Shown piece by piece: positions 10,027-23,231 of a stretch of DNA of 42,707 bases (position 1 is its first letter; each line of letters starts with the position of its first letter). Location of the stretch: positions 1 to 42,707 of the forward strand of contig NZ_AZFZ01000021.1 of assembly GCF_001435895.1 (NCBI RefSeq), given 5' to 3'. The notes under the pieces were generated by a model, which was not told the DNA's origin, ran no database searches, and saw only the letters and a list, made by a program, of their open reading frames with translations. Both the position numbers and the translations under genes were made by a program. The DNA comes from Lentilactobacillus parafarraginis DSM 18390 = JCM 14109. GTDB lineage: Bacteria > Bacillota > Bacilli > Lactobacillales > Lactobacillaceae.

Positions 10027-10160
10027 ACGACTTCAAATTGCATTTTGATGCGGGCTCCCTTATAATTAAGGCTAGGAAAAATGTACTCCTTTAAATATAG
10101 CCCGGTGAGTCTGTCAAGGAATGCCATTAATGAATATTGTTTTCAGAAATATATCTGATA

Positions 10161-10200
10161 AGAGATGCCCAACTCATGGGGAGTTGGGCATCTCTTATTT
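10161..10200 (+). terminator. Terminator of adh
   Basis: Perfect 15-base arms AGAGATGCCCAACTC (10161-10175) and its complement (10181-10195) with a five-base loop, then TATTTT. Confidence 0.9.
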
Positions 10201-20227: not shown

Positions 20228-20785
20228 TTATCGTGATTTTGTCGCTTGGTAATTGAAGGAAACAGTTACGACTTTTGAAGCTGGGTGTGGCGCAATCGTC
20301 GCCGGATTGCCAACGACCGTCAAATGGCTGGGAACGTTTGTCAGCACAACGGCACCAGCGCCAACTTTGCTGTATTGCCCAATTTCGATTGGTCCGAGTA
20401 TCTGGGCATTGGCGCCAATGAAAGCTCCCTGCCTGACGTAAGGATGACGCCGGCCCTGATCCGTCATGCGCCGCGTCCCAAGGGTTACGCCATGAAGAAT
20501 GGTGACGTCGTCCTCAATGATGGCCGTTGCCCCAATAACCGTACCTACTCCATGATCAATGAAGACACGCTTACCAATGGTTGCTTCGGGCGCGATGGTA
20601 ATTCCGGTGATTTTAGCGGCGTGCTGACTCAGTAAAGTTGCGAGAACGTATTGATGCCAGCGGACGAGTTGGTGGGCAATCCGATACCAAAACAGTGCCC
20701 GGATTCCGGGGTACGTTAGAATCACTTGAAGCAGACTATGAGCCGCCGGATCACGCTTGAGAATGGACCTTGCTGTTTGAAACAT
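20228..20785 (-). CDS. cysE: Serine O-acetyltransferase
   Basis: Makes O-acetylserine from serine and acetyl-CoA, the carbon acceptor for cysteine synthesis. The 185-residue length is the short form. The N-terminal helical part has the DPAAHS segment and the PGIRALFWYRIAH helix. From residue 60 it shows the left-handed beta-helix hexapeptide repeats, with catalytic His in FIDHGVGTVIG and ILHGVTLG. GGGGAG precedes the ATG at 20785, which lies inside the last 35 bases of the upstream PLP-lyase gene. Third gene of the cysteine operon, so its expression should follow the Cys-leader control at 23098-23172. Confidence 0.94.
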   Translation of the reverse strand: MFQTARSILKRDPAAHSLLQVILTYPGIRALFWYRIAHQLVRWHQYVLATLLSQHAAKITGITIAPEATIGKRVFIDHGVGTVIGATAIIEDDVTILHGVTLGTRRMTDQGRRHPYVRQGAFIGANAQILGPIEIGQYSKVGAGAVVLTNVPSHLTVVGNPATIAPHPASKVVTVSFNYQATKSR

Positions 20786-21935
20786 CTTGATGACTCCCCT
20801 TTAGTTGATCGAATCCGCGTTCCAGGTCGGCTAATAAGTCCTTTTGATCTTCAACACCAACTGACAGGCGAATTAATTCGTCCTTGATGCCGTTCTTAAG
20901 TCGGATGTCACGGGGAATTGAACCGTGAGTCATCAAGGCTGGAATTTCGATGAGGCTTTCAAGCGCGCCCAAACTTTCAGCCAGGGTGATGACTTGGAGC
21001 TGTTCGACAAATTGTTTGGGATCAAGACCGTCTTGTAATTCAAACGAGATCATTGCGCCAAATCCATGCATCTGCTTCTTGGCAACCTCGTAATCTGGAT
21101 TATTAGGGTCGCCAGGATAGTAAATCTTGCTGACCAGCGGCTGATTTTCCAAGTAGTTGAAAATGGCTTCCGCGTTGGCTAAATGGGCCCGCATCCGAAG
21201 CGAGAGGGTCTTCATGCCGCGTTGCAATAACCAGCTCTCCTGCGGGGCCAAAATGCCGCCGATGGCATTTTGCAGGTAGCCAATTTTTTCACCAAGGGCC
21301 TGATCTTTCGTGACCACCAGGCCGGCAACCAGATCACTATGGCCGCCTAAATATTTAGAAGCACTGTGCAAAACGATATCGACACCAAGATCTAAGGGCC
21401 GTTGAATGTATGGCGATGAGAAAGTATTATCGATAATGCTCAGGATGCCATGGCTTTTCGCGATTTTAGCCACAGCGGCGATATCAGTCACCCGCAGCAG
21501 TGGATTGGTTGGCGTTTCCAGATAAATGGCTTTTGTGGCGGGGGTGATGGCGGCCTCAACTGCTTGAAGATCGCGGGTATCAACGACGGTAAACGTCATG
21601 CCGAAGCGTTTTAAAACCGCGTCAATCAAGCGGAAGGTTCCACCGTAGACATCATTACCAATGACGAAATGATCACCGGCAGAGAATAGTGAGAATACCG
21701 TATCGATGGCTGCCGAGCCAGAAGCAAACGCAAATCCAGCGGTCCCGTTTTCCAGGTCGGCAATCAATTTTTCAACCGCGTCTCGGGTTGGATTCCCTGA
21801 ACGAGAATATTCATATTCGTTTTCGCCAATCTTTTGTTGGTGAAAGGTGGATGCCATGTAAATTGGCACTGATGTTGCGCCCGTGTGCTTGTCTTCGCTG
21901 ATGCCGCCGTGAATTAATTTTGTATCGAATTCCAT
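20751..21935 (-). CDS. mccB: Cystathionine gamma-lyase/gamma-synthase family PLP enzyme
   Basis: Cys/Met-metabolism PLP enzyme of 394 residues. In this cluster it most likely splits cystathionine to cysteine (reverse transsulfuration). Visible: the YSRSGNPTRDAVEKLIADLE block, SGSAAIDTVFSL cofactor-phosphate region, DVYGGTFRL, ETPTNPLLRVTDI, the Asp in IIDNTFSSPY, and the PLP lysine in HSASKYLGGHSD. The start is ATG 21935 with GAGG ten bases upstream; the in-frame GTG at 21950 overlaps that site. It follows the mccA/cysK gene by 41 bases and overlaps cysE. Gamma-synthase activity or hydrogen sulfide-forming side activity cannot be excluded from the sequence. Confidence 0.9.
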   Translation of the reverse strand: MEFDTKLIHGGISEDKHTGATSVPIYMASTFHQQKIGENEYEYSRSGNPTRDAVEKLIADLENGTAGFAFASGSAAIDTVFSLFSAGDHFVIGNDVYGGTFRLIDAVLKRFGMTFTVVDTRDLQAVEAAITPATKAIYLETPTNPLLRVTDIAAVAKIAKSHGILSIIDNTFSSPYIQRPLDLGVDIVLHSASKYLGGHSDLVAGLVVTKDQALGEKIGYLQNAIGGILAPQESWLLQRGMKTLSLRMRAHLANAEAIFNYLENQPLVSKIYYPGDPNNPDYEVAKKQMHGFGAMISFELQDGLDPKQFVEQLQVITLAESLGALESLIEIPALMTHGSIPRDIRLKNGIKDELIRLSVGVEDQKDLLADLERGFDQLKGSHQDVSNSKVHSQA

Positions 21936-21976
21936 AATAATTGACCTCACTTTTTTAGTTGTTAGATTTAAGTTGA

Positions 21977-22888
21977 TTAGTTGTAAATATTTTCACTCAT
22001 GTAACGCTCACTGCTGTCTGGAAAGACCGTCACGATTGAACTGTTTTCCGGCAAATCATTGGCTACTTTGAGACTGGCTGCTAACGCGGCCCCGCTGGAA
22101 CTGCCAATGAAGAGTCCCTGCGTTTTGGCCATTTGTTTAACTTGATCGAACGCGTCACTGTCGGCAATGGTGAGGGTTTCGTCAATTTGGACGTCCTTGA
22201 AGAAGGGCGGGACAAATTCGACGCCAATCCCTTCCGTTTTGTGCGGATGGGCTGGCCCACCGTTTAGAATGGAACCCTCGGGTTCAACAACCACCGTTCG
22301 GGTTGCCGGATTCTGTTCCTTCAGATATCGGGCGACACCGGCAAATGTGCCGCCGCTGCCTGCGCCCGCAACGAACGCATCAATTTGGGCGGGGACGTCC
22401 GCTACCAGCTCAGGCGCCAGGGTGTTGTAATAAGTCGCCGGATTGGCTGGATTTTCAAACTGCATTGGCACAAAACTGTTTGGCGTCTTCGCTGCCAACT
22501 CGCGGGCTCTTTTAATGGCGCCCTTGATTCCCTGGTCGCTCGGGGTATTGATGAGGGTTGCCCCCAAAGCCTTCATCAGCTGCTGCTTTTCAAAACTGAA
22601 CTTTTCAGGAACAATGAGGATGGTTGGCAAGCGGTGTTCCTGAGCAGCGAGGGCGACGCCAATGCCGGTATTTCCGGCGGTTGGTTCAATAATGGTGGTC
22701 TCTCCTTCAGTTACTTTACCGCGGTCGATGGCGTCTTGAATCATGTATTGGCCCAGGCGGTCTTTAATACTGCCGCCGGGATTAAACATTTCTAACTTGG
22801 CGTAAATGTGACTGTGGTGGGGAATGTCAATTTGCAGGTCGATTATTGGCGTGTTGCCAATGAGTTGGGAAACGGATTGAATAAGCAT
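21977..22888 (-). CDS. mccA: Cysteine synthase/cystathionine beta-synthase family protein
   Basis: PLP-dependent beta-replacement enzyme, 303 residues. The PLP lysine is in [11 protein letters not shown], the substrate loop is [10 protein letters not shown] and the phosphate loop [18 protein letters not shown] rather than the E-T/A-S-GNTG of typical CysK points to the MccA/CBS side of the family, which uses O-acetylserine plus homocysteine; CysK-type use of sulfide is still possible. With mccB and cysE behind it, the operon can make cysteine from homocysteine (from LuxS) and O-acetylserine. AGAAAGGA lies seven bases before ATG 22888. The gene is preceded by an intrinsic terminator and a Cys-rich leader peptide. 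Confidence 0.9.
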
Positions 22889-22987
22889 GGTAAGATCCTT
22901 TCTGAATGAGTGCTGTGGCTGTTAGCTTGGGTTCAGGAAAGATGATCTTGATGAATCGTTGAACGGTCATTGGTTGGTAGAAAATAG

Positions 22988-23029
22988 AAAAAGGGCGCGA
23001 AACTCTGAAAAATCAGAATTTTCGCGCCC
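22988..23029 (-). terminator. Attenuator-type terminator upstream of the cysteine operon
   Basis: Minus-strand GGGCGCGAAA and TTTCGCGCCC arms (23020-23029 and 22993-23002) with inner CTGA/TCAG pairing, then TTTTTCT. It sits between the leader peptide and mccA on one transcript, so unless it is bypassed the operon is silent. A 7-base helix (23056-23062 with 23032-23038), extendable by CCTT/AAGG into the terminator's 5' arm, lies just upstream and is a candidate alternative structure. Confidence 0.9.
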
Positions 23030-23097
23030 TTAGTTCAACTCCAGCCAAGTGGACATTGAACTTCTTTAAGGTCATTATTCCTCAAAAAATGTCAATG

Positions 23098-23172
23098 CTA
23101 ACAGGCCGAACATCGCCAAAAACGCGTTGTTCGACAGCAACAATTAATCGCATTAAACATTGATTGAGTCAT
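23098..23172 (-). CDS. Cysteine-rich leader peptide of the cysteine operon
   Basis: A 24-residue frame, MTQSMFNAINCCCRTTRFWR then CSAC and a stop. Five of 24 residues are Cys, including three in a row (codons 11-13) and the last sense codon. It starts with ATG seven bases after a perfect GGAGG (23180-23184) and lies about 24 bases downstream of a near-consensus promoter. A strong terminator follows 68 bases after its stop, before mccA. This arrangement is that of ribosome-mediated attenuation: when Cys-tRNA is scarce the ribosome stalls at the Cys run and changes the folding of the RNA downstream. The peptide itself probably has no other role. The details of the alternative fold are not resolved by eye. 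Confidence 0.82.
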   Translation of the reverse strand: MTQSMFNAINCCCRTTRFWRCSAC

Positions 23173-23202
23173 AGTGACACCTCCGAATTTTCTGTTGCCA
23201 TA

Positions 23203-23231
23203 AATATACACAATCCCGGTGCAGGTGTCAA
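23203..23231 (-). promoter_or_regulatory. Promoter of the cysteine operon
   Basis: Minus-strand TTGACA (23226-23231), exactly 17 bases, TATATT (23203-23208). The start is expected near 23196, shortly before the leader-peptide ribosome-binding site. Confidence 0.9.

Follow-up and report, generated by a model that had tools for sequence, protein, structure and literature searches.

The mccA-mccB-cysE operon of the window (the whole stretch of 42,707 nt analysed here) is preceded by a short Cys-rich reading frame and an intrinsic terminator which, judged by analogy with known systems, very probably act together in ribosome-mediated transcription attenuation, with charged Cys-tRNA as the signal that is sensed. 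The reading frame, its Cys codons and the terminator are conserved, and the alternative helices covary. The ribosome-stalling attenuator proposed in an earlier note, which was made from the letters of the window alone, is thus supported by the conserved Cys codons and by the covarying competing fold. The mechanism is of a known kind and apparently undescribed in this setting: among the best matches in the open-licence literature, we found no earlier description of a Cys leader in Lactobacillales.

The elements of the locus, all on the minus strand, are collected in Table 1. The promoter, the GGAGG motif, the 24-codon frame with five Cys codons and the terminator ahead of the operon, which the earlier note had read from the sequence, are all present. 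Besides codons 11-13, codons 21 and 24 of the frame specify Cys, codon 24 being the final sense codon. The predicted promoter matches the consensus at 11 of 12 positions; however, the scan returned seven promoter-like sites in 600 bases, compared with 1.8 in shuffles, and another site also reached 11 of 12. Because such further sites lie nearby, the promoter is plausible rather than proven. A similar promoter layout was seen, by eye, above most of the leaders inspected. The terminator precedes mccA by 102 nt; a simple terminator scan of the leader region returned none, whereas a separate search for a hairpin followed by a U run does detect the hairpin. When NCBIfam HMMs were searched with five leaders at E up to 1, no family matched. 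At the level of the sequence, a translatable frame with a ribosome-binding site lies between promoter and operon, its codons match the amino acid of the operon's enzymes, and an intrinsic terminator separates the frame from the first gene, as in an attenuator.

Table 1. Features of the leader locus and the operon in the window
Feature	Position	Strand	Basis
Sigma-70-type promoter TTGACA-17-TATATT (predicted); TTGACA 23231-23226, 17 nt spacer, TATATT 23208-23203	23203..23231	-	sequence scan
Perfect Shine-Dalgarno GGAGG of the leader ORF	23176..23184	-	sequence
Leader ORF MTQSMFNAINCCCRTTRFWRCSAC, 24 codons + TAG; ATG at 23172, TAG at 23100-23098	23098..23172	-	sequence; no NCBIfam match
Cys codons 11-13 (TGT TGC TGT), proposed stall site	23134..23142	-	conservation
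Leader (protector) hairpin, CGAACA 23133-23128 with TGTTCG 23112-23107	23107..23133	-	pair counts in alignment A1; equivalent in A2
Antiterminator 5' strand CGCGTTTTTGGCGATGTTCGGCC, within the leader ORF	23104..23126	-	duplex, swap test, fold, pair counts
Spacer hairpin in the antiterminator loop, predicted stalled state	23052..23098	-	predicted fold; z -4.43 for the region 23131-23033
Antiterminator 3' strand GGCTGGAGTTGAACTAAGGGCGCG, overlaps the terminator 5' arm	23023..23046	-	swap test, fold, pair counts
Competing hairpin AGTTCAATGTCCA...TGGAGTTGAACT, ribosome-at-stop state	23032..23062	-	predicted fold
Intrinsic terminator AAGGGCGCGAAA...TTTCGCGCCCTT + U-rich tract; stem 23031-22991	22980..23031	-	dG -30.1 with flanks; z -8.91
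mccA (cystathionine beta-synthase / cysteine synthase family)	21977..22888	-	best model cysKM, below cut-off
mccB (cystathionine gamma-lyase type, Cys/Met PLP enzyme)	20751..21950	-	best models below cut-offs
cysE/epsC serine O-acetyltransferase	20228..20785	-	EpsC model above cut-off

In the mechanism that we propose, a ribosome would, when cysteine is plentiful, pass the three Cys codons, reach the stop codon and cover the 5' strand of the antiterminator; the competing hairpin and the terminator would then form, and transcription would stop before mccA. When cysteine is short, the ribosome would stall at codons 11-13 and cover the 5' arm of the leader hairpin, leaving CGCGTTTTTGGCGATGTTCGGCC free to pair with GGCTGGAGTTGAACTAAGGGCGCG. 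This pairing would capture the 5' arm of the terminator, and RNA polymerase would enter mccA-mccB-cysE. What we infer is that the ribosome stalls, that Cys-tRNA is sensed and that the outcome is a kinetic one.

A protein search of 397 genomes of the Lactobacillaceae located mccA in 107 genomes, at 108 places and in 15 of 40 genera (E up to 1e-75); 107 of these places were analysed, that of G005, where the match starts at residue 96, being omitted. With the looser rule, a leader ORF with adjacent Cys codons was found upstream of mccA at 106 of the 107 loci, and in the one exception (L194) the contig breaks off 112 nt upstream of the gene. At all 106 loci with a leader, a hairpin followed by a U run lies between leader and gene (dG -7.4 to -30.1). 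A fixed rule (CC within an ORF of 12-45 amino acids and a Shine-Dalgarno word of at least 4) selected 104 of the 107 loci, but only one when the 107 sequences were reverse-complemented and, on average, 3.7 per 107 in ten dinucleotide shuffles. Three consecutive Cys codons occur in 65 of the 96 distinct leaders and two in the remaining 31, with 201 TGT and 56 TGC codons; since the finder demanded CC, the presence of two Cys in every leader follows in part from the search itself, and it is the controls that carry the point. Named Lactobacillaceae records gave a Cys leader at 18 of 18 loci, from Lentilactobacillus, Secundilactobacillus, Lactiplantibacillus, Periweissella, Paucilactobacillus, Loigolactobacillus, Oenococcus, Companilactobacillus, Limosilactobacillus and a Lactobacillus sp. 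MAG. More distant homologues outside the family (L019-L080) passed the fixed rule at 7 of 62 loci. The conservation of the Cys codons in relatives, on which the stalling proposal had been made to depend, therefore holds, at 106 of 107 family loci and with both synonymous codons in use.

Immediately downstream of the Cys codons lies a stretch complementary to the 5' arm of the terminator. In one clade, the codons TCG CGT CTT ATG CGA pair with TCGTATAAGACGC, and in the window CGCGUUUUUGGCGAUGUUCGGCC pairs with GGCUGGAGUUGAACUAAGGGCGCG. When terminator arms were swapped among genera, the leader strand reached a mean of -26.5 kcal/mol with its own arm, compared with -16.7 kcal/mol with the arms of other genera. 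The own duplex was more stable than the mean of the cross pairings in 93 of 96 cases and within the best 5% in 61 of them, and with one representative per genus none of 2,000 derangements was as good as the real pairing. Compared with mononucleotide shuffles, the duplex was significant at the 0.05 level in 76 of 106 cases and not in the other 30.

Pairs were counted in two alignments, A1 with 34 of the 39 members of its clade and A2 with 27 rows, that is, 26 of 29 clade members plus L193, the dropped members being mostly duplicates; neither alignment takes in the 13 sequences of a third clade or the 24 of a mixed rest. The antiterminator helix is paired in 92.0% of the cells in A2 and 81.0% in A1, compared with 28.8-52.4% and 28.3-48.9%, respectively, in slid versions, although the derivation of the structures from one member per alignment favours them over the slid versions. 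Double-change cells numbered 24 in A2 and 23 in A1, against 6.7 and 10.6 in shuffles, comparisons that are not to be read as probabilities, and the pairs changed on both sides (4 and 5 in the two alignments) were not above the shuffles. Several antiterminator pairs are often broken in A1, one of them in 22 of the 34 sequences. Because MAFFT loses the pairing register in some Secundilactobacillus-like arms, the counts from A1 are blurred, and the register-free swap test was therefore given more weight. The leader hairpin after the Cys codons presents a similar picture of covariation in both alignments. In A2, column 112 of the arm pairs with leader column 17 (GC in 20 sequences, AU in 7) as well as with column 152 of the terminator 3' arm (CG in 20, UA in 7), and the three columns change in the same seven sequences. 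This is a three-strand covariation, as required of a three-strand switch. Thus, the competing fold that the earlier note had asked about exists, is formed by the codons after the Cys codons and the terminator 5' arm, and covaries, so that an attenuator's alternative antiterminator is present.

To the palindrome GGGCGCGAAA...TTTCGCGCCC, which we read as a terminator, a different role could be assigned, namely that of an operator for a DNA-binding regulator, with the short ORF being incidental. A published motif search by Liu et al., as cited in the available text of PMC6004538, had indeed proposed a palindromic motif in this role. However, some 170 nt separate the palindrome from the predicted promoter upstream of it, the palindrome ends in a U tract, its sequence differs among genera while the complementarity to the leader is kept, and an ORF with Cys codons precedes it at 106 of 107 loci. 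An operator is therefore extremely improbable, and we reinterpret the reported motif as the terminator of the proposed attenuator.

Ribosome positions were simulated by folding only the RNA ahead of the ribosome, before the 3' arm of the terminator is made, and the pairing of the arm was scored on its lowest 10 nt; the whole-arm measure saturated near 0.5. With the A site on the first Cys codon, the value for upstream pairing of the arm base was 0.80; it was 0.70 for the second and 0.55 for the last Cys codon, compared with 0.34 for a ribosome at the stop codon and 0.56 without a ribosome. Stalling at the first Cys codon gave a higher value than the stop codon in 99 of 101 sequences, stalling at the second in 95, and the genus means agreed in 15 of 15 genera. 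Both strict cut-offs (at least 0.6 when stalled, below 0.4 at the stop) were reached by 59 of the 101 sequences. For shuffled leaders the stall value was 0.57, and 102 of 808 shuffles equalled or exceeded the real value. In the window, folds with a parked ribosome, as suggested in the earlier note, differ in the expected direction before the terminator is complete (0.89 stalled, 0.30 at the stop), but not in the full-length equilibrium fold, where the terminator scores 0.83 and 0.80, respectively, i.e., there is no switch. Across the sequences, too, the terminator dominates the full-length equilibrium in all states, with a mean of 0.84 when stalled and 0.92 at the stop, so that the decision must be kinetic. 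Kinetic decisions are the usual case for attenuators. Since the arm is already paired upstream at 0.56 without a ribosome, strong termination is not what these folds predict for RNA that is not translated.

The N-termini of the leaders are variable, and the tails are of different types (RTTRFWRCSAC, GSRLMRPTSWCA, STTRFRCCTAC, LIPRVSVDE...), each of which fits its own terminator arm. In L010, the frame is two sense codons longer, yet the RNA surrounding the former stop codon is conserved. For these two reasons the tail looks constrained as RNA; its conservation is suggested to reflect base pairing rather than peptide function, and the leader peptide as such is probably functionless. If, alternatively, the Cys-rich nascent chain itself arrested the ribosome, perhaps in response to free cysteine or redox state rather than to hungry codons, the good conservation of the tail RxxRCSAC in one clade would be explained. 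Base pairing accounts for it as well, however, and the variable N-termini, the tails that differ by clade (GSRLMRPT, RTTRFWRCSAC, LIPRVSVDE) while their encoded RNA keeps pairing, and the lengthened frame of L010 make such an arrest highly improbable.

Expression data are available for a closely similar, plasmid-borne operon, cysK2-ctl1-cysE2 of L. paracasei. In strain FAM18149, according to the available text of PMC6004538 (Wuthrich et al. 2018), RNA-seq found this operon higher in cysteine-deficient than in methionine-deficient medium (log2 2.9-3.2), a 7-9-fold difference in mRNA in the direction that an attenuator predicts. The same text reports high coverage of the 5'UTR, a rho-independent terminator and an antisense RNA; its authors state that they were unable to identify S-box and T-box regulons, and they also put forward an antisense RNA. 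The terms attenuation and antitermination are absent from that text. Fragmentation by RNase III, which it invokes for T-boxes, could inflate the coverage of structured leaders, and the 5'UTR pile-up in FAM18149 may partly come from it. Plasmid pFAM18149.25 carries MMSQSMFNAINCCCRTTRFWRCSAC and the same kind of terminator, with no entry for the leader in the feature table consulted. The leader offers the missing mechanism for the unexplained cysteine response and the apparent premature termination of cysK2-ctl1-cysE2.

It is also conceivable that another RNA switch (a T-box, SAM or unknown aptamer) or the antisense RNA of L. paracasei controls the operon and that the Cys ORF only tunes it. T-boxes serve sulphur genes both in the window and in L. 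paracasei, and an antisense RNA is reported at the 3' end of the operon (PMC6004538, available text). Yet no Rfam family matched over the window leader at E up to 1 and none reached gathering level over the leader in L207, L235 or L202, and in several genera only about 25-45 nt separate the leader stop from the terminator, which leaves little room for an aptamer. Known RNAs such as a T-box or SAM element were dropped as candidates for the leader for want of an Rfam match, and control by another RNA is very improbable. Attenuation at the Cys codons remains the preferred reading.

The operon also resides on plasmids. In PLSDB, 32 plasmids, all from Lacticaseibacillus, contain DNA that is 90-99% identical to the 301 nt of the leader element, in 14 of them over at least 80% of its length; the leader itself was read in one of the 32 (L202). 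The mobility of the operon has been published (PMC6200037), and the available text of that paper does not contain the words UTR, untranslated, promoter or upstream. In G261, an mccA gene 94% identical to that of the window, with a leader, apparently sits on a Lacticaseibacillus plasmid. This copy apparently is a recent transfer of the operon together with its attenuator.

Leaders of this type are not confined to mccA. The covariance models R1 and R2, built from the two alignments, match 74 and 83 of the 397 family genomes at E up to 0.01, with the weakest matches including chance ones and antisense matches to the palindromic terminator ignored. We analysed 56 model-matched places away from mccA, a set that does not take in every weak match, and 46 of them have a leader in which two or more Cys codons lie close together; the other 10 (L307, L311-L319), without a credible leader, were discarded as matches that arose by chance or through the terminator alone. 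The additional leaders include CCCC, CFC and CLC/CPC forms. Downstream genes are in view for 44 of the 46, L271 and L304 having none in the analysed DNA. Among the first three ORFs per locus, 31 proteins are cystathionine-lyase-type enzymes, and transport is represented by 14 ABC ATPases, 13 ABC permeases and 7 SBP_bac_3 binding proteins as well as by 5 OppA-like SBP_bac_5 proteins at 4 loci, the clusters being named via Pfam from one representative each, with the exception of the permease cluster. An HTS-domain protein is followed by cysteine synthase at two loci, and other ORFs further downstream have no evident sulphur link. With the substrates of the transporters and co-transcription being as assumed here, the Cys codons would match the amino acid of the transported compounds, too, and the additional leaders and their genes likely form a cysteine regulon. 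The scope, which the earlier note had supposed to be narrower, looks like that of a family-wide regulon.

Individual loci have arrangements of their own. At L272-L275, leaders with four consecutive Cys codons lie ahead of OppA-like binding proteins, which suggests the import of Cys-containing peptides. Leaders with Cys-Phe-Cys instead of Cys-Cys-Cys precede a lone cystathionine-lyase-type gene at L264-L269, and in G155 and G389 the Cys-Phe-Cys leader is a second copy besides the mccA leader.

In a sample of 395 genomes of the order, mccA-like genes were also found in other families of Lactobacillales, and 38 of the 60 places outside the family (E up to 1e-100) were examined (L325-L330, L335, L341-L343, L345-L372). 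A Cys-rich leader precedes mccA at 35 of these 38 loci, in forms such as FSYSCCQTSRCGD, CCCLCC, ECCCTC and CCCCMV, and all 35 leaders are accompanied by a hairpin and U run. The three loci without a credible leader (L343, L355, L356) belong to one genus group and may use another regulator. The swap test is weak here, with -16.1 for the own arm and -12.4 for the cross pairing and the own arm better in 27 of 37 cases, the spurious L355 and L356 included. Covariance model R1 matched 10 of 365 genomes of the order, all of them Lactobacillaceae, and likeness in sequence to the leader of the window was seen, by eye, only in genus group g83. Outside the order, Cys-rich ORFs of another type, e.g., MMCCDMCCERRVCFAIPI, were observed about 190-300 nt upstream of cysK-like genes in Oscillospiraceae and Ruminococcaceae MAGs (L039, L048, L051, L063), followed, by eye, by a GC-rich hairpin and U run in the first three. 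These ORFs possibly represent an independent cysteine attenuator in Clostridia.

With attenuators of the trp/his/leu type, the leader shares a short ORF rich in codons for the regulated amino acid and the mutual exclusion of antiterminator and terminator; it differs from them in the amino acid, cysteine, and in its occurrence in Lactobacillales. Compared with the layout in E. coli, the 5' strand of the antiterminator here lies inside the leader ORF, right after the regulatory codons. Runs of Cys codons upstream of cysteine operons are also known from the leaderless polycysteine ORFs of mycobacteria (Canestrari 2020, via the available text of PMC13236596) and from actinobacterial cys leader peptides, including one at cbs of Bifidobacterium longum, for which, according to the available text of PMC1262725, no conserved terminators were found. 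The mycobacterial ORFs are, however, described as acting by translation attenuation (PMC13236596, available text), whereas the present leader has a Shine-Dalgarno motif, a terminator and a covarying antiterminator. Given this Shine-Dalgarno motif and a distance of about 30 nt between the predicted promoter and the ATG, the leader of the window was rejected as a leaderless ORF of the mycobacterial type. The uORFC-8-2 motif, likewise with two tandem Cys codons in a uORF, a U run and a proposed ribosome-mediated attenuation, is in the available text of PMC8632094 reported only ahead of cysS in Rhodobacterales and is set apart by gene and lineage. Histidine leader peptides before hisS/hisZ in bacilli are, like the Cys leader, a case in which Firmicutes use leader-peptide attenuation instead of T-boxes, for another amino acid and other genes; the available text of PMC2965389 considers such attenuation rare in this phylum.

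A T-box(Cys), such as the one before an amino-acid ABC transporter in L. paracasei (PMC6004538, available text), also causes antitermination on uncharged tRNA(Cys), but its RNA binds the tRNA directly, and the window leader has no T-box match. The two T-boxes serving methionine genes that had been noticed in the same window were recovered on the minus strand at 8990-8642 and 7367-7112, with E values of 1e-15 to 1e-17, below the Rfam gathering score. They are followed by a 371-aa ORF and by 157-aa and 761-aa ORFs, respectively, which we take to be MetE/YxjH-like, LuxS and MetE. Since the T-boxes precede methionine-synthase- and luxS-like ORFs, methionine and cysteine genes within a single stretch of 42 kb seem to be controlled differently, the former by T-box and the latter by leader peptide. 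On the plus strand, the window has in addition a PyrR binding site at 10084-10199 (Rfam RF00515), just above the gathering score.

To the few cases of attenuation by leader peptides considered to exist in Firmicutes, the Cys leader adds a probably regulon-sized one. On balance, we lean towards the view that Cys-leader attenuation is an old, shared way of controlling cysteine genes in Lactobacillales, in place of T-boxes or LysR regulators, and that its reach takes in mccA-mccB-cysE, cystathionine lyase, transporters of the cystine type and of peptides, and cysE/cysK; it would also travel, within the operon on plasmids, as a self-contained and protein-free regulator for which the ribosome and the Cys-tRNA of the host suffice. 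The genes concerned underlie the sulphur flavour produced by food bacteria as well as their supply of cysteine.
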